This document shows positions 1 through 15,720 of a stretch of DNA of 26,073 nucleotides, piece by piece; position 1 is the stretch's first letter; each line of letters begins with the position of its first letter. Origin of the DNA: a virus. The DNA lies in the IMG/VR virus record IMGVR_UViG_3300035701_000247, positions 1 to 26,073 of that record; one strand, written 5' to 3'. The notes below the pieces were generated by a model. The model was given only the letters and a program-made list of their open reading frames with translations. It was not told the DNA's origin and did not search any database. The translations under genes and the position numbers were made by a program.

Positions 1-1606
1 GGAGTACGGTGCGATCAAAACCACAGTACATCTCCCGGTAAGCGTCGATTATATGGCCCCGCCAGTTGCAGTTGGCCATCCAGTTGTACACGTTCTCGTC
101 GGCAAAAGCAACCACTTTGTCATATGGGATAATATGCACACTTGCTTCACCCTCGAACACTTCTGGGAACACCGTCCCTATGATCAGTAGATCATAGTGC
201 TTGCGCAGTTCAGGTAGAATGTGCTTGAATGCGAGCACATCACCAAGTCCTGTTCCCAAGTGAATCAGTTTGATCTTGAACTCCTCAGCCAACAGCCGCA
301 TGAACTCTTTGTGATCGAACGCATAGGCCCAACGGTTATCATCCTTGCGTGTCCCACCGCTGGGGCTCTTTAAGTGATAGGTGATAATGTCTGTATCAGC
401 GATCAGCCGATAGCCTGCGCGTTTCAAGCGGTAGGTGAAGATGGTCTCCTCGTGATAGGCTACATTCGTCATGTCACTCTTGTAGTGAACGATACCGGCG
501 CGGTAAAGAAAACTACAGTACAGAAAATCCACGTCGCGCCTCCCCTGATGTGGACCCCACTGAATGTTCCAGCCATCAAAGAAGTCCTCGATTTTACTGG
601 TCCCGCCAGTCACAATCTTGTCCGGTTGGTAGACTGCACCCCCTACTGCTCCCACGTCCTCATCCATGAGAGCGAGTAACCGCTCCAGTACATCCGGCTC
701 AGCTACACAATCATCATCCAGCCGCCAGACATAATCGTAGCCAGCGATATTCGCTAGTTCATGTGCTCGGTGTTGGCCCTCACGCTTCGTGAAGATAACC
801 TCCCACTCGATCCTATGCTGAGTCAAGAGTGGGAGCATGTAGCGGCCTATTGCATGCTGCCGGAGATCTGCCTGCTCGCCATCGTCGTAGATGTTCACTT
901 TGTCGGGCTTCACCGTTTGCATCATAACGGACTGGAGGGCCATCATCAGTGAGTCATAGCGGTAGCAGGTTGGGATCGAGCATAGCACACGCTTCTTGTC
1001 CTTGTACGTTTTTCCTTCCTCCCAAACCATCACGAGCAGATTGGCAATCTCTGTAGTAGGGAAAGCCTCAATGTCTTCATTCATGTGCATGTAGCGATAC
1101 TCGAACTGACGGAAATCATGCTCGGCTAGTTGATGCAGCACATGGTGCGGACCCCAAAAACCGGGAGGCTCCCGGTAGGGAGTAGTGAGAATTACCGTCT
1201 TTGCATAGGTCTTGAGCTTCTGCGCGATCTCTCGACCATTAGGGATGTGTTCCAGCACCTCAAAGGCAATGATCACATCCCACTTCTGGCCGTTCACTTC
1301 TTCAAAGAACTTGTCGATGCTTGACCAGATGAAGTTTCTGTTGGCAGAAGCGAAGTTCCGCTTGGCATACTTGATGATTTCATGCGAGTAGTCAACGCCA
1401 GTGTAGTGAATATCTTTCGGTAGGAAGCGAAGACCAAAGCCAGATGAACAGCCGAGTTCCAGCACGCGGTCTTTGGGTTTGATGTACTGTGCTGCGAATC
1501 GGTAGCGGGCAATCTCGCGGGCATAGGCTTCCGGGTCAATGGCCTCCTTTGAGCCCAGCACTGTCCGCTCGTAGTTGTTGCCGTATTTTTCCTGATCTGC
1601 TGTCAT
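1..1606 (-). CDS. Methyltransferase-GT2-GT9-like fusion protein (C-terminus beyond window)
   Basis: The frame is open from ATG at 1606 to the left edge, 535 codons without a stop, so the gene is incomplete. Residues about 1-195 look like a class I SAM methyltransferase: LELGCSSGFG at 49-58 (motif I), GVDYS at 70-74, and FEVLEHIP at 115-122. Residues about 205-440 look like a GT-A family 2 glycosyltransferase: an early DDG at 241-243, RLDDDC at 295-300 supplying the DxD metal/nucleotide-sugar motif, and a late HEET at 385-388. From about 443, KLIHLGTGLGDVLAFKHILP resembles the N-terminus of heptosyltransferase-like (GT9) GT-B enzymes. The ATG overlaps the stop of the lectin-like gene as ATGA, so translation is coupled to the adhesin genes. 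The likely role is sugar transfer and methylation on a fiber or on host surface glycan; the acceptor is unknown. Domain calls come from motifs read by eye. Confidence 0.85.
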   Translation of the reverse strand, partial: MTADQEKYGNNYERTVLGSKEAIDPEAYAREIARYRFAAQYIKPKDRVLELGCSSGFGLRFLPKDIHYTGVDYSHEIIKYAKRNFASANRNFIWSSIDKFFEEVNGQKWDVIIAFEVLEHIPNGREIAQKLKTYAKTVILTTPYREPPGFWGPHHVLHQLAEHDFRQFEYRYMHMNEDIEAFPTTEIANLLVMVWEEGKTYKDKKRVLCSIPTCYRYDSLMMALQSVMMQTVKPDKVNIYDDGEQADLRQHAIGRYMLPLLTQHRIEWEVIFTKREGQHRAHELANIAGYDYVWRLDDDCVAEPDVLERLLALMDEDVGAVGGAVYQPDKIVTGGTSKIEDFFDGWNIQWGPHQGRRDVDFLYCSFLYRAGIVHYKSDMTNVAYHEETIFTYRLKRAGYRLIADTDIITYHLKSPSGGTRKDDNRWAYAFDHKEFMRLLAEEFKIKLIHLGTGLGDVLAFKHILPELRKHYDLLIIGTVFPEVFEGEASVHIIPYDKVVAFADENVYNWMANCNWRGHIIDAYREMYCGFDRTVL

Positions 1607-2187
1607 AAGTCCCCTGCCGACCAATCATCAATATAACTGGCATCATTGGAATAGAAAGGCGCACCACCATAACCGGCACCCGTAACGTCAGAGTCTGTGG
1701 TGGTCAAAGTTGTCGCACCATTTCGCTTGCATGTGATACTCGTTCCCGATACCTCTATCCTCACAATATCGTTCGCCGCAAAGTTTGCGCCGCCAGTCTG
1801 GAGACTCGTCTTCACGCCGTTGACAACTTTGAATAATTCGCTACCTACATTGGATCCACCATAATACCCATAGAACTTTGTTGATGCTCCCGTGCCCGTG
1901 CACCGCACAGAAACTCCGGCCTGACATGATGGCCCTGCCGCAACGATCTTCGCTGTAGCAAATTGATTTGCCGCGAGAATCTGATCCTTGTAGTATGCAC
2001 TGCACTCCGTCGATCCAGTGCCCCCGGCGAGACCGTTGGAGTTGATATTCCAAACGGTTCCCTGTTGAGTTGTCCAGTGTGTTATCCCACTATTGAAATT
2101 ATCAGAAGCAGAAGCTGGCGGTGTAATATATCCCTGTTTTCTGAGGCCCGCTTCCTGTCGCCCCAATATAAAATCAAGGACACTCAC
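1603..2187 (-). CDS. LamG/concanavalin-like lectin-fold protein without signal peptide
   Basis: A 194-residue protein. After a short N-terminal tail (about residues 1-25) it has one beta-rich domain that opens with ASDNFNSGITHW and closes with YIDDWSAGDL. This plan, DNF near the start and DDW near the end, is typical of LamG/concanavalin A-like jelly rolls that bind sugars. A secreted protein at 12655-13323 shares the same opening and closing motifs, so the two are probably distant paralogues. This copy lacks a signal peptide. The GTG start at 2187 overlaps the stop of the collagen-like adhesin as GTGA, and its own stop overlaps the next ATG. The likely role is an accessory adhesin or fiber-tip component. 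The function is inferred from fold-like motifs and position. Confidence 0.75.
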   Translation of the reverse strand: MSVLDFILGRQEAGLRKQGYITPPASASDNFNSGITHWTTQQGTVWNINSNGLAGGTGSTECSAYYKDQILAANQFATAKIVAAGPSCQAGVSVRCTGTGASTKFYGYYGGSNVGSELFKVVNGVKTSLQTGGANFAANDIVRIEVSGTSITCKRNGATTLTTTDSDVTGAGYGGAPFYSNDASYIDDWSAGDL

Positions 2188-4511
2188 GATGAGTACTCGT
2201 CAATAATAATCATTCCAGGAGAACCGGCCCCACCAGATCTCAAACCCGATGTGATAAGGATTGCTCCTCCTCCACCCGCACCGTTACCTGTTGCCGGAGA
2301 GCCATTTGAACTTGCTGTCAAAGTTGTGCCGCCAGCACCAGGTCCTCCACCATTTGCCCCCTCACCAACCACTTGGGTACTCATCATTCCGTGATTACCG
2401 GGAAACCCGCCAAGCGTTACATCACCAGAATACCCGACCGGAGCGCCCGACCCCCCATAGGAAACCTTTACTGCTGTTGAAGATTGTGCGGCTCCGCCTC
2501 CACCCAGACCGCCGGAGGCTCCGAGAACGGTTGTGCCTGAGAATACGTTATTGCCACCCGCTGATCCTGAGAGGTTTCCAATACCTCCAAGACCACCAGA
2601 TCCAACACCATAATTGTGCCACGTCGAAGCGCTCATAGTCATGCGCTTCTCAGTATAGCCACCACCACCACCACCACCACCAGCGCAACCAGAAGAAGCC
2701 GTCGTCGAGGAAACCCCGCCACCGCCAGCGCCTCCGCCGACAAGCATCACTACCGCGTAAGCTGTTGCTGCGTTTGACTGATGGCTACCCGTTCCAGCCG
2801 CAGCATATACCGTCCGAGCAAGGAACCGTCCAGTTGTCACGGATGAATAGCCGGAGTAACCCGATGTTCCTGCCGCACCATTTGTGCCAGAATATCCTGA
2901 GTAGCCACTGTACCCACTTGCGCCAGGGCTCGCAGCCGAGTAACCGGAAAATCCTGAGTACCCCGAAACCCCACTCCCACTGTAGCCAGAGAACCCTGAA
3001 TATCCACTTACACCTGATCCGGAGTAACCGGAAAATCCTGAGTAGCCCGATGTCCCAGAACCAGAGTAACCGCTGAATCCAGAGGTTCCAGAACCGGAAT
3101 ACCCTGAAAATCCACTCGTCCCGCTGCCCGAGTACCCCGAGTATCCACTATATCCTGATGTTCCGGAGTCGCCGGTCCTCGAGAAGGTAATTACTATCGG
3201 ATCATTATTCGTAAACGATCCGTTGCTGACAACGTGAACTACTGTCAATTTCCGGTAGCCCGTCGCTGTCGTCCACGAGGAGATCGAGTAGACAGCAAAG
3301 ACAGAACTGTCCAATTTCTTGAAGATCCGGACGAAACCCTTGATAGTACTCGTACTGTCGTCGAGGGAGTCGAGCCACGCGGTTACTGTGGCAGCATCAG
3401 CATTCAAGAGATCAATGAAAAGCTGGGTGACACTTCCCAGAGTACCATTGTTGAACTTGAGTATGCCATTCCCGGGATCCGAGTCGTCTGTTGCACTTGA
3501 CCATGTGTAGTAGTGCGAATCTCCTCCAGCATGCCCAAGATAACCGGAATATCCCGAATACCCAGAGGTTCCACTACCGGAGTAGCCACTGTACCCACTC
3601 GTCCCGATACCCGAGTAACCAGAATATCCCGAGAATCCCGAATCTCCGTTGCTCCCGATAGTGCCGTTTGTGCCAGAGTAACCACTGAATCCTGAGTAGC
3701 CGCTGGTCCCTTGCCCCCCTGCGTTTCCTTGCGGTCCACTGTACCCTGAGTAGCCACTTGCGCCAGGATTTTGACCGCTGAAACCCGAAATCCCTGAATC
3801 TCCAGTGAATCCACTATACCCACTGAATCCGCTGGCTCCCCCCGTTCCCGTTGATCCCTGCGGACCGCTGTATCCGCTATATCCGGACGTTCCTACGTTA
3901 CCCTGATTACCCTGTTGTCCTTGTGGCCCACTGAAACCGCTGTAGCCCGAGGTTCCAACGGATCCGGTTGAACCTTGTGGCCCACTGAAACCGCTGTAAC
4001 CGGAAATTCCCTGAATACCTTGATCCCCTTGCGGACCGACCAATCCGCTGTAGCCACTATACCCCGAATAACCGCTTGATCCCAGCGGGCCGCTGTACCC
4101 AGAAAACCCGCTTGTTCCTTGATTACCCTGAGAGCCTTGCGGACCTGTCGCTCCGCTGTAGCCTGAGAATCCAGATGTTCCAATACCACTATAGCCAGAA
4201 TACCCACTAGATCCGGTATTGCCCTGATCGCCTTTGGCTCCAGAGTAGCCACTATGACCCGAGAATCCGCTGCTTCCTTGGTTATCGCCACTGTAGCCGC
4301 TCTGTCCCGAGTACCCACTGATCCCACTGTAGCCTCTCATGCCGCTTTCTCCCGATCCGGATAGACCTTGGAACTGTTCGGCAAACCTAGTGAGTGCGTC
4401 GTCGAGTTCCGACTTGGAGATCGCTTGACGCGCCAAATTCTCAAGTTCATCCTCGATCTCCGGGGGTTTTGTTTCCGTCTTGTTCCAGAACCGTATCTTT
4501 CTCGTAATCAC
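2184..4511 (-). CDS. Collagen-like tail fiber/adhesin with glycine-rich tip
   Basis: A 775-residue protein. Residues 1-49 are a charged, probably helical head that may anchor it to the particle. Residues about 50-330 are a collagen-like block (Gly every third residue), dominated by GYS, GFS and GTS triplets with scattered GPQG. Residues about 331-448 form a globular insert (DPGNGILKFNN, then a stretch ending FTNNDPIVITFSRTGD) of a type common between repeats in phage fibers. Residues about 449-556 are a second collagen block. The C-terminus, about 585-775, is very glycine-rich (an eight-Gly run at 612-619, ending GMIIIDEYSS) and resembles glycine-rich phage fiber-tip domains. It is probably a trimeric receptor-binding fiber. 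The GTG start overlaps the nozzle-like gene stop (GTGA). The assignment as a fiber is firm; attachment site and receptor are unknown. Confidence 0.9.
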   Translation of the reverse strand: MITRKIRFWNKTETKPPEIEDELENLARQAISKSELDDALTRFAEQFQGLSGSGESGMRGYSGISGYSGQSGYSGDNQGSSGFSGHSGYSGAKGDQGNTGSSGYSGYSGIGTSGFSGYSGATGPQGSQGNQGTSGFSGYSGPLGSSGYSGYSGYSGLVGPQGDQGIQGISGYSGFSGPQGSTGSVGTSGYSGFSGPQGQQGNQGNVGTSGYSGYSGPQGSTGTGGASGFSGYSGFTGDSGISGFSGQNPGASGYSGYSGPQGNAGGQGTSGYSGFSGYSGTNGTIGSNGDSGFSGYSGYSGIGTSGYSGYSGSGTSGYSGYSGYLGHAGGDSHYYTWSSATDDSDPGNGILKFNNGTLGSVTQLFIDLLNADAATVTAWLDSLDDSTSTIKGFVRIFKKLDSSVFAVYSISSWTTATGYRKLTVVHVVSNGSFTNNDPIVITFSRTGDSGTSGYSGYSGYSGSGTSGFSGYSGSGTSGFSGYSGSGTSGYSGFSGYSGSGVSGYSGFSGYSGSGVSGYSGFSGYSAASPGASGYSGYSGYSGTNGAAGTSGYSGYSSVTTGRFLARTVYAAAGTGSHQSNAATAYAVVMLVGGGAGGGGVSSTTASSGCAGGGGGGGGYTEKRMTMSASTWHNYGVGSGGLGGIGNLSGSAGGNNVFSGTTVLGASGGLGGGGAAQSSTAVKVSYGGSGAPVGYSGDVTLGGFPGNHGMMSTQVVGEGANGGGPGAGGTTLTASSNGSPATGNGAGGGGAILITSGLRSGGAGSPGMIIIDEYSS
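2659..2682 (-). repeat. Trinucleotide microsatellite (CCA)8, GGT on the coding strand
   Basis: Eight perfect CCA units on the plus strand lie within a reading frame that encodes a run of eight glycines (residues 612-619) in the adhesin tip. It is the longest simple repeat noticed in the window. Gain or loss of units would keep the frame and change only the glycine count. Confidence 0.9.
2844..3167 (-). repeat. Collagen-like repeat block 2 (coding)
   Basis: This stretch codes for residues about 449-556 of the adhesin. Triplets GYS, GFS, GTS and GVS are broken at regular intervals by a two-residue Gly-Ser step (as in GYSGSGTSG), which shifts the collagen phase by one residue each time. Confidence 0.85.
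3522..4364 (-). repeat. Collagen-like repeat block 1 (coding)
   Basis: This stretch codes for residues about 50-330 of the adhesin: Gly-Tyr-Ser, Gly-Phe-Ser and Gly-Thr-Ser triplets with GPQG segments. The repetition is much stronger in protein than in DNA, because glycine, serine and tyrosine codons vary from copy to copy. Confidence 0.9.
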
Positions 4512-7012
4512 AGCACATCACCCATAGCCGGGTAGATTGAACGTAATATCCTCAAGGTCTTGATTCGAACGATTTGATCCTTGGCAGTAACCGTTGCGCT
4601 GATCTTGAGTCGAAAACTTTTGCACCGAGCGGAGAGGTCGAAATAGTCAAAGTGCGTGATAGCTCCTAGTCCTGCCGGACAGATCCTCGTCGAAAAGGCC
4701 GTGTCTGAATCATCTAGGTATAGGGCGATCGTAACCGCTACGTCCGATTGATACTCCGCCCTGAAACCCTCGATCAGTATGTCGAAGTTCGCAAAGGGAC
4801 TATAGATGGGGCTCGTCTCAAATTCGCAATCGAATCCCGTTGGCCCGATATCAAGTGTTTCATCTGAGGACACACAGAGAAATTGGTCGTCGCTCACGAA
4901 ACTGAGATTTGTAGCTGGGGGCTTTAATATCCAGATCGGAGTCTTGTTAAACTCCACCGGTAGAGCATCCCCCGGCGTCAGTTCCGGCGTTCGCATGGGA
5001 AACCAATACCACTTGTTGCCGGCAAAGAGACAGTATCGACCGTGTAGGAGGTCGTACCCCGCGACGGCGTTCTCTACCCCTAAGATGGCCTTGTAGGATT
5101 TGATCCATGCAGGATTGAGAAGCGCCTTCCCTTCATTTGGCGTAAACGTCCAGATCCCGTAATGCCCAGCCCAATAGACTCGACGGTTCACGATCAGGAC
5201 GGAATTGATTGCAGCAACGCCATCATCACTAGTGATCGGCTCCCAATGCCAGAGTTCAGCTTCTCCACGCAAACTCAGGATGGAACCCGTCTGGTCCGTG
5301 AGAATCAACAACCGGTCGTCGATACCGATGAGGCTCTTGATGGGATTTGGATCCGATTGCAACTGATCGAAACTCGTTTGTGGTCCGATACAGATTAGGT
5401 CCGTTTGGATGGCTCCATCTCCACTCGCCGGCGTAACGCACACCCGATTTGGATACCGGATTCCACCAACCATCACGTCCCCGTAGGCAACCTTATTGGA
5501 GGCAATCCCGACTGTGTTCCAATACCCTGGCGCTCCGTCTGCTGTACCCCTCCCGAGATCAGCACTAGCCTCTGCACCTTCCATATCCGTCAGATCGACA
5601 TACAGGAGAATACCATTCGTTTTCCATGTGTTCGTTCCGTCGTAATAGTCTGCCCTTGCATCGTCATAGACATTCCCACAATCAGTGAGGTCGAGTTCTT
5701 TTGACTGAAAGAACCCCGGGCTATCGACGTTCTCAAGGTAGATCCGAAGTCTCGTTGCGGATCGAGGGAATATCCCCACCTGTAGCATAACGTGGACGAC
5801 AATCTTCTCGTCCTCTGCAATCGTGATTCCTGAATCGTCTGTCGCGTCGAATCTACTGTGAACGCCGTCGTACTTTGGACAGTGTTTCAAGGGACTCCAA
5901 CTTTTGCCCGTCAGCACCGAATATGCTGCCCGGTACGTTCCAGCAAGCATTGGAGTGCCTGCCCCTCCATGCGAAAACAGCCCTACGTAGATGCAGGAGT
6001 CAACAGGATCGTAGAACTGATCGTCGAGGATCACGCCATTGGCAAGTTGTTCTTTTGGGACCAGATCCGACCGTCCGTATTCACCAAAGCCGATGAAATA
6101 TCGCGACTTGTAGGTTCCCAGACCGGTCGAGATCCGCATGCCGTCCTCGAGTGAGAAGATGCGCGGGTCTATATCGACGTCGTCCGATGCAGAGAACCGG
6201 TTTTGTTGGTAGATGTAGTTTCTGTGGATCCTGATGTTGTCGCCAACTTGCCAACCAAATTGATCCCAGGCGCTATCAATTATTTGCAACTCTAGCAGTC
6301 CCCGGTCATTCGCGTCAATATCGGTACATTTGGATGCCAGTATGCGCGTGAAGCGATTGTATTGCTTTGCACTCTCAAGGTTCTCGACAGTCCAACTTCG
6401 GAAATAATACTGATTTTCGTATCCGTTTCCGTACCCTGTGCCGGCTTCCTTGGGAAAAACCAAATTGTCTGAATCGCCAAACAGCCACGTCGCTGGGTCT
6501 GAATCGACGACCAACCACTGATGCCATGTTCCATGGATAGCGTAAACGTGAAGATCCCAAAATTCCGTCAATTCCTGCCAGCTATCGTACCACACCGAAC
6601 CATTCCAGAAGGGACGCACAAAGATGCCGTAGGTGTAGACATAATTGGCGGTAGGGGTGCAAGCGCGGTTTCTATATTTCATCATCACCACGTCGATCGT
6701 AGCGCCACCATGGGCCGTTGTACGGTACTTCTCCCATGCGACCATCTCTCCTTGAGATCTACGCGATTTGACAACGTAGGGATTAAGTTCGATGCTGTGC
6801 GGTTTGAAGGAAATCGAGGGATTATGACCCGTAGCCGAACCGATACTCCAAGCCGATCCAAGGCCCTGGCGACGACAAAGTTCACCAGGAACCTCGTCCA
6901 GCACGAAGTTCTTTGCACTCCTAGCTGAGTTCGCCGGAGCTAGAATGAGATCCGGAGCTAACCCATGCCAAGACGGAAAAAGAACCTGTTTTTCGTCCTG
7001 TTCAACTTGCAC
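4508..7012 (-). CDS. Tail nozzle / stabilization-like protein
   Basis: An 834-residue beta-rich protein. Its middle part, about residues 560-680 (for example SLIGIDDRLLILTDQTGSIL, then VYWAGHYGIWTFTPNEGK), has the beta-propeller-like pattern seen in P22 gp10/T7 gp12-type tail nozzle or stabilization proteins. The N-terminus (residues about 15-60, with LAPANSARSAKNFVLDEVPG) fits the same family, where a leading segment covers a list of tail positions. It follows four connector-like genes and precedes the fiber, as expected for the distal end of a short tail. The start is GTG at 7012 with GAAGGG upstream, overlapping the previous gene by 11 bases; no ATG lies near. The family assignment is by pattern and gene order, so the name is provisional. 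Confidence 0.65.
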   Translation of the reverse strand: MQVEQDEKQVLFPSWHGLAPDLILAPANSARSAKNFVLDEVPGELCRRQGLGSAWSIGSATGHNPSISFKPHSIELNPYVVKSRRSQGEMVAWEKYRTTAHGGATIDVVMMKYRNRACTPTANYVYTYGIFVRPFWNGSVWYDSWQELTEFWDLHVYAIHGTWHQWLVVDSDPATWLFGDSDNLVFPKEAGTGYGNGYENQYYFRSWTVENLESAKQYNRFTRILASKCTDIDANDRGLLELQIIDSAWDQFGWQVGDNIRIHRNYIYQQNRFSASDDVDIDPRIFSLEDGMRISTGLGTYKSRYFIGFGEYGRSDLVPKEQLANGVILDDQFYDPVDSCIYVGLFSHGGAGTPMLAGTYRAAYSVLTGKSWSPLKHCPKYDGVHSRFDATDDSGITIAEDEKIVVHVMLQVGIFPRSATRLRIYLENVDSPGFFQSKELDLTDCGNVYDDARADYYDGTNTWKTNGILLYVDLTDMEGAEASADLGRGTADGAPGYWNTVGIASNKVAYGDVMVGGIRYPNRVCVTPASGDGAIQTDLICIGPQTSFDQLQSDPNPIKSLIGIDDRLLILTDQTGSILSLRGEAELWHWEPITSDDGVAAINSVLIVNRRVYWAGHYGIWTFTPNEGKALLNPAWIKSYKAILGVENAVAGYDLLHGRYCLFAGNKWYWFPMRTPELTPGDALPVEFNKTPIWILKPPATNLSFVSDDQFLCVSSDETLDIGPTGFDCEFETSPIYSPFANFDILIEGFRAEYQSDVAVTIALYLDDSDTAFSTRICPAGLGAITHFDYFDLSARCKSFRLKISATVTAKDQIVRIKTLRILRSIYPAMGDVL

Positions 7013-10705: not shown

Positions 10706-12658
10706 TTATGGTATCCTGCCGAGAGTACGTTTTACTGTTTCTAACAAACCAAATCTACCATGCCCATTTGTACTGTCCGGCTGGAAATCTTCTGTCAGGC
10801 CATAGAGCATGATCGCCTTGAAACCGTTTGTCCGAAGCCATGACGTCCATTTTGCCGCGTTTATATTTGTGGGGGCACTCACAAAATATCTCTCTCCGGC
10901 AGGGATATTGGCGTTTGTCGCTGGCCAGCCTGTTGCAAAGGATAAAGTTGATGCAGCAGTGCCGGTATAGTACCCTGCTTCATGCGTGGCATCATAACGA
11001 AACTTATTGGACGGCATGACCTTACGCATTCGGTTCAAGTAAACTGTTGCCGATCCAGCATAGTACCCCCAGCCACCAGCACCCACTACTGTATCGGAAA
11101 CAGTGTGATAGACATTCCCGTAAGTTGCCAACCCTGCACCCAACTGGTTCTTAGGCCATCCATGACTCACCCACATCTTGGGGCCCGGATTACCACTTGC
11201 CGTTGCTTGCACACTATCCCGCAATCCATATCCCGCCCAGTCTCCAGACGGACAGACAGCTGGAGCGCGTTGCATTGCATCCATAAACCACGTTCCATTC
11301 CAACCGGAAGGCTGACCACCAAGACAAGAGTTGTAAACCATGCCCCACGCATAATACTGAGGAACCACAAGATCAATGTAACTTCTGGCCCCTGCATATA
11401 AATCGTAGTCACCCATCCCAGAAGGAAGAACAAATGTCTTCCCGGACGCATGAAGTGATCGGCCCAGTATCCGACAGAATCTACCCACGATAGTTGCCGA
11501 CGGAAGAGGGTCGCCATTTGTTTCTTCCCAATCCAGATCAGTGCCGTCAAAGTTATTGCGCACACAAAAACGCGTTACCTCGTCAGCAAATACCTGGCTT
11601 TTCACACTATCATTTGCAATAGCATTGAGGTTATTTGCCCAGACCGCTTGGATTGTAACGAGAACCTTCCCGCCGAAAGCATGAACACTGTCGCGGACTA
11701 CACCAGCCCTGTTCCCTCCGGGTTGCCCATAGCCCCAGAAGTCCAGACTATCACTGATGCCGTCGTTATTGTCGTCGTAACCACCAGCTCCGTCAATCGT
11801 AAAGTATGGATAACTACTGGCAATGTTTCCGTTAGAAAAGAGAATCACATAGTCAATCCCTCTCCAATCCACTTGTGTTGCCGGTAGGGTGGCCATCATC
11901 CCATCCCACGAAGTCCCATAAGTCCCGAAAATCCACAGTTGCGCATAGAGGACAATCTTGAAGGTCGTATCTGGTGCCTGAGCCGTAGCCGTGGTGAATG
12001 ACCATATTGAACTCCATCCACTTGTCCCCCCCAGATTGGTGGCATTGACCCGCCAGTAATAGGTCGTGAGATTCGCCAAACCACTGGCCGGATAACTCGT
12101 CGTCCCAACCGATTGATTGATAACGGTCGATGCAAAAGTGTTGACCAAAGAAACTTGGATTCGGTAACTTACAGCCCCCCCCGAAGCGTTCCAAGTGAAT
12201 GTCGGACTCGTAGAAACGCCTGTAGCACCGTTAGCCGGCAACGCCAACGTTGGAGCCAGAGGAGGATTCGGTAAGGTCGTGAAACTCCATGTTGTAGAAT
12301 AAGCACTTGTACCACCAGGACCGGAGGAACGAACATGCCAGTAATATGTGACGCCGTTAGACAAAGGCGGAGCATAGGCTGTATCTGCTTGACTTTGATC
12401 CACCGCCACTGTTGCAAAGTTGTTCACCGTTGAAATCTGTAAACGATACGACGTCGTGTTGGCCGTAAGCCGCCATCGAAAGGTGTATCCAGGAATAACA
12501 TCCACGGCAAGGTTCGCGGGAGTGACCAAAGTCGGCACGCCGGGAGCGCCAGGAGGAATCTCGTATCCTCGCTTAGGCAAACGCTTGGAAGTCTGTCCAC
12601 TGGCAATAACAAGGAAGGCGGTTGTGAGAATCAAAAGGCCAATGCAGGAACGTTTCAT
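10706..12658 (-). CDS. Secreted GH18 glycosidase (chitinase/endo-N-acetylglucosaminidase-like) with two Fn3 domains
   Basis: A 650-residue protein. The ATG at 12658 overlaps the upstream stop as ATGA, and GGAGGT lies inside the upstream gene's last codons; a longer frame to 12676 lacks a ribosome site. Residues 1-22 are a Sec signal peptide (MKRSCIGLLILTTAFLVIAS). Residues about 41-129 and 135-224 are two related Fn3-like domains, each with a TYYW(H/R)V core and a WSFTT end. Residues about 232-650 are a GH18 barrel: DGTDLDWE at 371-378 is the DxxDxDxE signature, with Glu378 the expected acid, and all key residues are kept. GH18 enzymes cleave chitin or N-acetylglucosamine linkages, some in peptidoglycan. 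Substrate and export target are unknown. It may be a lysis enzyme, a virion depolymerase or a lysogenic-conversion gene. Confidence 0.85.
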   Translation of the reverse strand: MKRSCIGLLILTTAFLVIASGQTSKRLPKRGYEIPPGAPGVPTLVTPANLAVDVIPGYTFRWRLTANTTSYRLQISTVNNFATVAVDQSQADTAYAPPLSNGVTYYWHVRSSGPGGTSAYSTTWSFTTLPNPPLAPTLALPANGATGVSTSPTFTWNASGGAVSYRIQVSLVNTFASTVINQSVGTTSYPASGLANLTTYYWRVNATNLGGTSGWSSIWSFTTATAQAPDTTFKIVLYAQLWIFGTYGTSWDGMMATLPATQVDWRGIDYVILFSNGNIASSYPYFTIDGAGGYDDNNDGISDSLDFWGYGQPGGNRAGVVRDSVHAFGGKVLVTIQAVWANNLNAIANDSVKSQVFADEVTRFCVRNNFDGTDLDWEETNGDPLPSATIVGRFCRILGRSLHASGKTFVLPSGMGDYDLYAGARSYIDLVVPQYYAWGMVYNSCLGGQPSGWNGTWFMDAMQRAPAVCPSGDWAGYGLRDSVQATASGNPGPKMWVSHGWPKNQLGAGLATYGNVYHTVSDTVVGAGGWGYYAGSATVYLNRMRKVMPSNKFRYDATHEAGYYTGTAASTLSFATGWPATNANIPAGERYFVSAPTNINAAKWTSWLRTNGFKAIMLYGLTEDFQPDSTNGHGRFGLLETVKRTLGRIP

Positions 12659-13323
12659 AAACCACCTCCAGCCCAATCGTCAACTTGTGAAACCCCGTAG
12701 TCGCTGTAGCATGAAATCCCCGCCTTGCCAGAATTGATGTACCCGAGTGAGTTTGGGTTCGTATCCGCTTGAGTGTTCACTATCGTCCCGTTTTGTTTCG
12801 TCACGAGAGAGATTGACCCATCCTGTCCCGTCACCTCAAGTCTCAAGGTCTGCCCCGTCGTGAAGGCAATCACCCCCTCGTCCCATTCGTAATTCACTCC
12901 GGCAACCCACTTCCCAACGTACAGGTGCCCATCGTAGGGCTCGAAGACTGAATAGTAGTACGTCCGCGCCCCTGTGGCCGCTCTGGCAATAGCCCCAATG
13001 GACTGATACCCCTCTACCACTGCCCAAACGAGTTTGACTTGGCTGTACTGATCGTTGGCGAACGTCCCAGCAGAATAGTGCGCTTCGTTGCCCGCTCCCA
13101 AATATCCCTGGACGACATTCCCATATATCTCAAGACCGCCGTAATTGACTGTCCAGTTTGCTCCGAGGTCGGTTGCATTCGTCCGGTTGAAGTTGTCTGT
13201 ATAACCAGACGGAGGAGCCCCTTGCGTTGCTGTTGTGAAGTAGAACGGCGAAATTGCCGACTGCTGTGCAAGAACCGGCAGAGCGAGGCAAAGAAGGGTC
13301 AGAACAAGGATGAATTTTCTCAT
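12655..13323 (-). CDS. Secreted LamG/concanavalin-like lectin-fold protein
   Basis: A 222-residue protein. Residues 1-20 form a Sec signal peptide (MRKFILVLTLLCLALPVLAQ) with a likely cut near Ala-Gln. The rest is one beta-rich domain with DNFNRTNATDLGANWT at about 43-58 and a closing QVDDWAGGGL, the same frame as the protein at 1603-2187. Such jelly-roll domains commonly bind carbohydrate. The ATG overlaps the upstream stop (ATGA at 13323), and its own stop overlaps the GH18 start, so the three genes are translated as a set. The GGA GGT codons at its end double as the GH18 ribosome site. The binding target is unknown. Confidence 0.75.
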   Translation of the reverse strand: MRKFILVLTLLCLALPVLAQQSAISPFYFTTATQGAPPSGYTDNFNRTNATDLGANWTVNYGGLEIYGNVVQGYLGAGNEAHYSAGTFANDQYSQVKLVWAVVEGYQSIGAIARAATGARTYYYSVFEPYDGHLYVGKWVAGVNYEWDEGVIAFTTGQTLRLEVTGQDGSISLVTKQNGTIVNTQADTNPNSLGYINSGKAGISCYSDYGVSQVDDWAGGGL

Positions 13324-15704
13324 AGGTCATGCCCCAGGACGATTGCCATGAAACTTCGAGGTTTTGTCGTGATTGTTGGAACTGTCAACCAAATTGTCAA
13401 GCCAGCGGCAACGGTCGCATTGTTGAAGGTCGAGATTTTCGTTGCCGTCGTGTTGCTCGTTACGGGAGACGGAGAACTAATCACCGCCGTTCCCGAAGCT
13501 GAAATATCCAGACCAAACCGAATGTCGGGCACGATTGATGGGGAAGATCCGCTTGACATCACGTAGATGATGGTGTCAATCACGGCTCCTGTCGAGTAAC
13601 CCATCGTATATTTTTCGGTCGTATTTATGGCCGATGAATCTGCCCCACTCGCAAAGTATCCGATCACTTTTGATTTCAGCCGGTAAGATCTTGATCCGGC
13701 CAAGGTTTGGAGAGTGTCGGTCGGAGTGTACACCATCCCCGTTGTTTTGAACCCCAAGATATTCGTCCCTGCCAAATCTGTAAGCTGGAGGTCTGTCGAG
13801 GACTGGAGAAGTGACATCTGCCAACCGGACTGAGTACCAGCCATGCGGCGGATTCTGAAACCGGGGAAGGAGAACGTCGAGTTGTAGTATGCATTCACTG
13901 GCCCGTTGACATGGATTGAGTCGTTGAACGTGTTGCCCGCACCAAGACCCTCACCAACAGAATCCGAAGCGGTTTTAAGTAGTCCCGCCTCTAGGTAGAT
14001 CTTGGAGGTCCTGCCAGTATAGGCGGTGTCGGCAAAGGGAATCAGCGTTTTCCCTGTAATCTGTGACGCTCGATACGCATATTTCGTCGTATCCGATTTG
14101 TACGCGGTGCGTGAACTGTCAGATTGTTGGGCTTGTGCCGGGATCAAATTCCGAACGTCATACCACGTCGCAAGGGTTTCGGCGGAAGATGTGGTTATCA
14201 GAATCTTCGGACCATACCGGAGAGAATCCGCAGAGTTCCAAAGAGCAACCTGTCCAGCCGAACCGAGGACGCCAAGCGAGTTTGTGCGGAAATACTGCTT
14301 GATCTCATCCTGTGCTCCTCCAGCGGCAAGGTCAGCCCACACTATGTCCCGAAAATTCGGGACTCCAGAAGTGCCATTGGGCGACATCAGGGGTCGGTTG
14401 GCGTTTTGAGATCCCCACGTTACAGTGAACGTCCCCGCACTTGTGATGGGATTCGGCGTACTGACAGAAAATTGTGCCGGCATAGTCAGTCCGATACTAG
14501 TGACGGTCCCGCTACTTGGAGGTACAGAAACCGAACTCCAGTAGGTTCTCAGTCCATCAGTAAGAAGCGCTTTGCCGGAGTTCCCGCCCTGAGCAGGAAG
14601 GAGATTTGTCAGCGCTGAATCCTTTGAGTTTCCTCCTGTCCCACCTTTGGCGACCGACATAATATTGCCGTTCCACGTTCCCGTCGTGACATTCCCAAGG
14701 GTAACGATGGAGGTTTGACCGACATAGTTTGGAGAAATATCAAAGGCTCCTGTGCCGGATGTGTAGAGGACCCTATTCGTTGTACCAGAGAACGAAGCGC
14801 GAACGGTGCTCGTCAAATCTGCCCATGACTTATCTCCACGGAAGTATTGTGCGCTAGTTCCAGGGGAGATAAAGTCCTGTTTAAGTCCGACCTGTCGTTG
14901 ATTTGCAAGTCCGATCACCGACGTTGTCGTATCAACCCCAAAAGTATAGACTGCACCCACGCGGCTGACGGTTAGGGGCGCAGTTGGATTTATCCGTATT
15001 GAATCCGTGTTCGGGACGTCGGATCCTGTGATGTACGCCTTAAAAGTTGTATCACCGGACCCGCCACCGCCGCTCAGATATAGATCGTTGAGGCTTACAC
15101 CCTGGGGGTAGTTTCTATCCTTGAATACCAGACCGTTGCCGTTCACAAGGATCTGCTCTTGTGTACTGGCGAAATTGACGATCTCGTTTGTCGTTATATT
15201 GCCAACAAATAGATTCGCAAAGTAAGCCGAAGATCCGTATGCAGAGAAATTACCATCAACACTGAGATTTGGCCCGATATGAAGGGTATTGCTCTCGGCA
15301 TCTAGCCAAATGTCAGCGTAGAAACCGTAGTCCAGATCCTCGAAGCGCAGTTTCGCGCCGCTTCCGTTGTGGGCCGAAAAGAATAGGGTTTGTGCGGTCT
15401 GATGGAGAGAACTTGAACCCGAAAGTTCATTCGAAAGCCCTTCTCCACGATCTCCCCTTGTCGTCCAAATCGCAAAATTCCCAGGAGTGCCGCTACCCTG
15501 AACCACGTTTGTCATGCCGCCAATGAGACGGTTGAGTGTCTGCGCTCCAGCAACCCTGTCTTTCAGGATCATATTGCCGGACCCGTCTCTGTATATGGCG
15601 GTTGTGCTATCGTGGATCTGAAATTTCTCCCGGGTGAACGTCGATTGTGCTCCTGCAATCTGCGCGGAGAGCAGAACGACTAGAGACAGTATGAGCTTTT
15701 TCAT
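13320..15704 (-). CDS. Fiber-like protein with Sec signal peptide
   Basis: A 794-residue protein starting at ATG 15704 (MKKLILSLVVLLSAQIAGAQ is a signal peptide); a GTG start at 15713 would add three residues. After residue 20 it is a chain of beta-rich modules typical of phage fibers: YFRGDKSWADL at about 287, TGTWNG at about 341, GGTG at about 354, GTVTSIGLTMPAQF at about 399, and FRDIVWADL at about 451. These modules usually form trimeric shafts in tail or receptor-binding fibers. A signal peptide on such a protein is unusual, since virion fibers assemble in the cytoplasm. No clear Shine-Dalgarno sequence precedes the start. The C-terminus (about 730-794) is beta-rich and Thr/Ser-rich. It may be a virion fiber or an exported host-surface protein. 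Confidence 0.75.
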   Translation of the reverse strand: MKKLILSLVVLLSAQIAGAQSTFTREKFQIHDSTTAIYRDGSGNMILKDRVAGAQTLNRLIGGMTNVVQGSGTPGNFAIWTTRGDRGEGLSNELSGSSSLHQTAQTLFFSAHNGSGAKLRFEDLDYGFYADIWLDAESNTLHIGPNLSVDGNFSAYGSSAYFANLFVGNITTNEIVNFASTQEQILVNGNGLVFKDRNYPQGVSLNDLYLSGGGGSGDTTFKAYITGSDVPNTDSIRINPTAPLTVSRVGAVYTFGVDTTTSVIGLANQRQVGLKQDFISPGTSAQYFRGDKSWADLTSTVRASFSGTTNRVLYTSGTGAFDISPNYVGQTSIVTLGNVTTGTWNGNIMSVAKGGTGGNSKDSALTNLLPAQGGNSGKALLTDGLRTYWSSVSVPPSSGTVTSIGLTMPAQFSVSTPNPITSAGTFTVTWGSQNANRPLMSPNGTSGVPNFRDIVWADLAAGGAQDEIKQYFRTNSLGVLGSAGQVALWNSADSLRYGPKILITTSSAETLATWYDVRNLIPAQAQQSDSSRTAYKSDTTKYAYRASQITGKTLIPFADTAYTGRTSKIYLEAGLLKTASDSVGEGLGAGNTFNDSIHVNGPVNAYYNSTFSFPGFRIRRMAGTQSGWQMSLLQSSTDLQLTDLAGTNILGFKTTGMVYTPTDTLQTLAGSRSYRLKSKVIGYFASGADSSAINTTEKYTMGYSTGAVIDTIIYVMSSGSSPSIVPDIRFGLDISASGTAVISSPSPVTSNTTATKISTFNNATVAAGLTIWLTVPTITTKPRSFMAIVLGHDL

Positions 15705-15720
15705 TGTCGGCACGTCATGG

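Follow-up and report, generated by a model that had tools for sequence, protein, structure and literature searches.

Glycosylation of a collagen-like surface protein by an enzyme encoded next to it has been described for the spore protein BclA3 of Clostridioides difficile. SgtA, a GT-A glycosyltransferase encoded beside bclA3, glycosylates the collagen region of BclA3 by adding GlcNAc to Thr (in vitro also to Ser) of Pro-rich GPT triplets, in which the hydroxyl residue is at the Y position; this one glycosyltransferase adds the first sugar (PMC7157674). TibC, of the TibC/Aah enzymes, has a GT9-type fold and heptosylates many serines, but not threonines, of a repetitive autotransporter adhesin; it is a single polypeptide that forms an iron-containing dodecamer (PMC4358343; PDB 4rb4, 4rap). 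In mycobacteriophages, virion proteins are believed to be decorated by glycosyltransferases of the phage itself (Freeman 2023, cited in PMC12619734); the sites are the C-termini of capsid and tail-tube proteins and not a collagen fiber, and the enzymes differ from those described here. Collagen-like phage fibers themselves are known from E. coli O157 prophages. These have Pro at about half of the X positions, and recombinant EPclA and EPclB produced in E. coli are not glycosylated, their stability being thought due to Pro and charge (PMC3368898). Glycosyltransferases encoded in phage tail regions are usually read as host-surface modifiers (PMC7029224).

This work describes a phage locus in which a collagen-like tail fiber is paired with a cassette of a methyltransferase (MT), a GT2 glycosyltransferase and a GT9-type enzyme that is divided over two proteins, its N-terminal half (GT9N) and its C-terminal half (GT9C). 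As with BclA3/SgtA, a glycosyltransferase gene adjoins the gene of a collagen-like protein that carries a hydroxyl residue at Y. Unlike BclA3/SgtA, the protein is a phage fiber with Ser at Y and little Pro, and the enzymes are MT, GT2 and a split GT9. The cassette recurs beside Ser-type collagen fibers in one cultured phage as well as in dozens of uncultured viruses, so it is probable that the phage coats its fiber with sugar. With a probability of about 0.6, we predict that the cassette enzymes O-glycosylate, and probably methylate, the Y-position serines of the fiber. We are much surer of fiber and cassette as a conserved unit than of the target of the enzymes.

The stretch of DNA analyzed here (the window) is a linear virus record of 26,073 bases that ends inside the enzyme gene and derives from a phage with a P22-type portal. 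At the end of the structural module, on the minus strand, an 834-aa protein is followed by the collagen fiber, a lectin-like protein and the enzyme gene, which is cut by the contig end (Table 1). The coordinates confirm the original prediction that the last three genes are consecutive and joined by stop/start overlaps: the fiber stop shares GTGA (2184-2187) with the lectin-like start, and ATGA (1603-1606) contains both the lectin-like stop and the start codon of the enzyme gene. The fiber start likewise overlaps the stop of the 834-aa gene (GTGA at 4508-4511). As special evidence of coupling, however, these overlaps do not hold up, because 4-nt overlaps are present at 7 of the 23 gene junctions in the window; they represent ordinary operon packing and prove little alone. 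When viral contigs were scanned with the 834-aa neighbor as a single sequence, no match was obtained. Elsewhere in the structural module, Ig/fibronectin domains are present in the protein encoded at 10706-12676, along with a weak GH18-like domain that stays below the cut-off; this protein and those encoded at 12655-13323 and 13320-15713 have signal-peptide-like N-termini, which is odd for virion proteins.

Table 1. Features of the fiber and enzyme locus, in window coordinates.
Feature	Positions	Strand	Basis or remarks
834-aa structural-module protein, family unknown	4508..7012	-	directly above the fiber; no Pfam, PHROG or phage match
Collagen-like tail fiber, 775 aa	2184..4511	-	GTG start at 4511, stop ends at 2184
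Lectin-like (jelly-roll type?) small protein, 194 aa	1603..2187	-	weak PHROG virion match
MT-GT2-GT9N enzyme gene	1..1606	-	ATG at 1606; gene cut by contig end; 81% identity to L004
Methyltransferase domain, aa 26-190	1037..1531	-	PF13489 (Methyltransf_23), 49.5 bits, over cut-off
GT2 (GT-A) domain with DDD motif, about aa 207-440	287..988	-	PF00535 (Glycos_transf_2), 41.8 bits, aa 211-332, over cut-off; PF13641, aa 281-429; DDD conserved
GT9-type GT-B enzyme, N-terminal half (GxGD motif), ~90 residues	3..286	-	alignment with L004 and P19250A
Separate GT9 C-half gene, first 8 codons (VVLIAPYS), +1 frame, cut by contig end	1..24	-	comparison with L004 2241-2708

The fiber belongs to the collagen-like phage tail fibers: it carries a Gly-X-Y repeat, scores 69 bits against Pfam Collagen (PF01391, cut-off 27.2), is matched by PHROG tail-fiber families and lies among the last genes of the structural module. 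A short N-terminal part is followed by GYS/GFS collagen blocks, an insert domain (~aa 332-446, 41% shared with the HTVC010P fiber), further collagen and a glycine-rich C-terminal part. Within the 114 Gly-X-Y triplets that occur in runs of five or more, the Y position is Ser in 72, while the X position is Tyr, Phe or Ile in 55 and Pro in 7. The many dozens of Ser and Tyr residues that had been noted are thus present (148 Ser and 54 Tyr in the whole fiber); tyrosine found no support as a likely acceptor.

The lectin-like gene had been proposed as part of a conserved set of three, and here the proposal fails: the gene is missing from most relatives, for which reason it was rejected as a cassette member, and its body is exchanged in the closest one. 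That closest locus (L004) encodes a relative of which the first ~20 residues are kept and the rest differs from the window protein. The L004 protein matches the window proteins encoded at 12655-13323 and 1603-2187 about equally (both with E about 1e-18). It seems, then, that the slot following the fiber swaps bodies while ~20 N-terminal residues are kept. The label "lectin" rests on weak similarity, with the L004 relative matching DUF1349 below the cut-off, and single-sequence scans of viral contigs with the window protein gave no match.

The enzyme gene had been read as an MT-GT2-GT9 fusion. Its MT and GT2 domains are borne out, whereas the GT9 part comprises the N-terminal half only and the C-terminal half is a separate gene. 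L004 covers the contig break. In that locus the GT9N frame runs on without homology, the extension being without structure in the model (pLDDT below 50 from residue 532), and GT9C is a separate ORF in the +1 frame that has its own ribosome-binding site and start (AGGGAG-7nt-TTG); its product scores 27.0 bits against PF01075 (Glyco_transf_9, cut-off 22). GT9C of the cultured phage P19250A remains below that cut-off with 15.6 bits, and the window C-half itself is cut off. What is left of it begins with a GTG at positions 24-22, preceded at 7 nt by GGGAG (32-36), a likely ribosome-binding site.

A single gene read through programmed +1 frameshifting, or an assembly error, could mimic such a split, and the GT9N and GT9C frames in the window and L004 do overlap by tens of bases without obvious need (98 nt in L004). 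This explanation is highly improbable and was rejected, as the halves are separate ORFs in 151 of 151 scorable loci, and fused in one chain in none. Moreover, 71 of 85 non-redundant loci show a 4-nt stop/start overlap between GT9N and GT9C, the ribosome-binding site at the GT9C start is conserved, L093 and L115 have the two halves separated by other genes, and GT9C modeled alone folds as a complete Rossmann-type domain (pLDDT 95.5). The intervening genes encode an HNH/NUMOD3 endonuclease (L115:5354-5998) and a methyltransferase (L093:3592-4086). A different insertion is present in L014 (3530-6907), a GT2-MT-GT2-GT9N ORF whose second GT2 domain is interrupted by an intein with a LAGLIDADG domain. 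A GT-B enzyme formed from two half proteins is also represented by Alg13/Alg14 of eukaryotes, which belong to another glycosyltransferase family and act on a lipid-linked acceptor.

The best matches of the GT9C model in the PDB were TibC and then WaaC, the LPS heptosyltransferase I of family GT9, which is also a sequence relative of GT9C but is a single chain with LPS as acceptor. The alignments behind the structure models contain no P19250A rows. No NCBIfam model scored above its cut-off, a match to a curated TibC/Aah (BAHT) family model being absent, and the two GT-B halves, joined in TibC, are separate genes here. K192, D261 and H266 of WaaC align with invariant GT9C residues; in GT9C alignment A3, K20 and D77 are invariant and aligned to K192 and D261. 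The GxGD aspartate of GT9N, D456, is also invariant and may be equivalent to D13 of WaaC. With invariant residues in both halves, the active site would be shared by two proteins. The cassette is under strong purifying selection, with dN of about 0.12-0.15 and dS near or above saturation. A Foldseek match of the GT2 region to the human collagen galactosyltransferase COLGALT1 was set aside; it carries no weight because many GT-A enzymes score alike.

Fiber and enzymes recur together outside the window. P19250A, a Methylophilaceae phage in culture whose tail genes include one of lambda-J type, encodes a 1201-aa GYS-collagen fiber, MT, GT2-GT9N and GT9C consecutively, with 39% identity to the window over the MT-GT2-GT9N part. 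The pairing therefore spans different phage types. Its fiber, P19250A_0023 (L005:11306-14911), is labeled as tail tape-measure protein. In IMG/VR, alignment scans recovered 264 proteins related to MT-GT2-GT9N; for GT9C the number was at least 533, and the analysis continued with the 80 best from either set. Clustering of GT2 domains at 90% identity gives 79 groups, and at 70% it gives 15. The make-up of the cassette varies in MT and an extra GT2 (separate MT, GT2-GT2-MT, GT2-FkbM methyltransferase, or GT2), and no extra conserved gene, flippase included, was found in the set. Two further genes were observed near individual cassettes: a SPASM-domain protein ahead of MT-GT2-GT9N, possibly a further modification enzyme (L009:1046-1798), and in a lineage with a glycine-rich fiber, a 2OG-Fe(II) oxygenase encoded four genes ahead of MT (L032:2779-3396).

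A GYS collagen was counted as near the cassette when located at most four genes upstream or two genes downstream. Among 65 non-redundant cassette loci with at least two upstream genes, 49 have a GYS collagen, 2 a glycine-rich fiber and 14 neither. Collagen occupies 48 of 221 gene positions at -1, -2 and +1 relative to the cassette and 0 of 363 at +2 to +8. A record-wide collagen search in exception loci was positive in 5 of 16 (4 over the cut-off), and a glycine-rich fiber replaces collagen in the lineages of L032, L039 and L149. Across 84,980 species genomes, GT9C was present in only four contigs, which makes the cassette essentially viral; one of these carries the full collagen-MT-GT2-GT9N-GT9C row and another shares the P19250A gene row downstream of GT9C. 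The search for a conserved set thus succeeded for fiber and enzymes, in P19250A and dozens of uncultured phages, and failed for the lectin-like gene.

To compare collagen types, collagen loci were drawn by a DNA pattern that is blind to the enzymes, and records of about 15 kb or more were used for GT9C counts. GT9C is encoded in 22 of 46 GYS-collagen records (20 times as a stand-alone ORF of 141-174 aa) versus none of the 50 records with Pro-type collagen (p = 3e-9, Fisher test). Within the GYS-pattern sample, the cassette lies beside 47 of 89 Ser-Y collagens versus 0 of 19 Thr-Y collagens (p = 5e-6), counted by locus, with some records entering twice. The Ser-Y enrichment of this sample as such was discarded as evidence because the pattern itself selects Ser-Y; the evidence used consists of the Ser/Thr split within the sample and of loci found via the enzyme sequence alone, in which nearby collagens have Ser at 85% of Y positions versus 5.5% in the Pro-type control. 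A composition-neutral collagen sample points weakly in the same direction (cassette with 2/14 Ser-Y collagens versus 0/94, p = 0.016). As the lineages share ancestry, these counts are not independent, and they are given uncorrected for it. The predicted link between collagen fiber and enzymes is upheld in a narrower form: it was found with Ser-Y collagens only and was absent with the sampled Pro-type collagens.

In the mechanism that we propose, MT, GT2 and the two-part GT9 would act in the host cytoplasm ahead of assembly, on a Pro-poor collagen in which X is aromatic or aliphatic and Y is mostly Ser. One glycosyltransferase, most likely the TibC-like GT9 halves, would put a sugar on many Y-position serines, the other would extend that sugar, and the methyltransferase may cap or alter it. 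The sugar would stabilize a collagen that is without (hydroxy)proline, and the fiber would gain a glycan coat. Glycosylation has been reported to stabilize collagen (Bann 2000, cited in PMC3368898), which fits the Pro-poor repeat.

The enzymes might instead alter LPS or another surface glycan of the host during infection, for example to block superinfection or to avoid the release of progeny onto debris, with the fiber adjoining them since the same receptor is concerned. GT9 relatives such as WaaC act on LPS, the glycosyltransferases in the tail-fiber island of pelagimyophages have been read in this way (PMC7029224), and joint exchange of fiber and receptor-altering genes is to be expected. 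We nevertheless consider host-surface modification unlikely. It does not predict a cassette that accompanies Ser-Y but not Thr-Y or Pro-type collagens; action on the host surface can hardly account for such a link to the Y residue. The link is expected if the Y-position serine is the acceptor: TibC modifies serine and not threonine, and SgtA, encoded beside bclA3, acts on collagen triplets. The MT, GT2, GT9N and GT9C ORFs contain no segment above 1.9 (Kyte-Doolittle, 19 residues), few above 1.6 and no clear membrane segments, and the membrane flippase and membrane glycosyltransferases of GtrABC-type serotype conversion are absent from the cassette. Such glycan genes are usually shared with hosts, yet bacterial genomes are essentially devoid of this cassette except on phage-like contigs.

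Genes may also travel together in an exchangeable tail island without acting on one another, and the enzymes may then have a different target, be it DNA, a phage metabolite or some other protein of the virion. Co-location of this kind would fit the lineages with a glycine-rich fiber and the 14 cassette loci, out of 65, that have neither collagen nor a Gly-rich gene close by; the counts are inflated by common descent (15 GT2 groups at 70% identity), and many Ser-Y collagens do without the cassette. The last point was also the finding that the original prediction had named as contrary to fiber modification, namely homologous fibers that regularly lack the enzyme, and it applies in part: about half of the Ser-Y collagen records are without the cassette, and both GT9C and PF00535 (GT2) are missing from 11 of 46 GYS records. 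Co-location is nonetheless a rather remote prospect, given that the pairing is seen in phages with differing virion types, with the collagen either before or after the enzymes, and that Ser and Thr are discriminated inside one sample. Modification of the fiber itself therefore remains the reading that we prefer.

A different GT2 accompanies the Thr-Y collagens. It is present in all 7 long records drawn with Thr-Y collagens versus 13 of 50 Pro-type records; with G031, which has its Thr-Y collagen elsewhere, the former number becomes 8, to which p = 1e-4 applies. This GT2 lies a few genes from the Thr-Y collagen in G009 and G031 and far off in the linear record of G018. A long GT2 ORF directly follows the Thr-Y collagen fiber in G014 (L501), and in G041 (L507) a GT2 is one gene away, which makes a parallel Thr-collagen system in these two records possible. 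More broadly, and tentatively, phages may have two parallel systems for glycosylated Pro-poor collagen fibers, Ser-Y via MT, GT2 and a two-protein GT9 and Thr-Y via another GT2 set, with sugar in place of hydroxyproline as triple-helix stabilizer; the split GT9 would then be a new two-subunit protein-glycosylating GT-B enzyme that is almost exclusive to phages. A literature search for phage collagen linked to glycosyltransferases found no such paper.

The role commonly given to phage glycosyltransferases near tail fibers is modification of the host surface or of DNA. The present cassette tracks the repeat chemistry of the fiber, Ser and not Thr, which argues that many phages make glycosylated fibers, and these would affect adsorption and fiber stability. 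The cassette offers an enzyme set for the production of glycosylated collagen in bacteria, and P19250A is a cultured phage in which the proposed fiber glycosylation can be studied directly.
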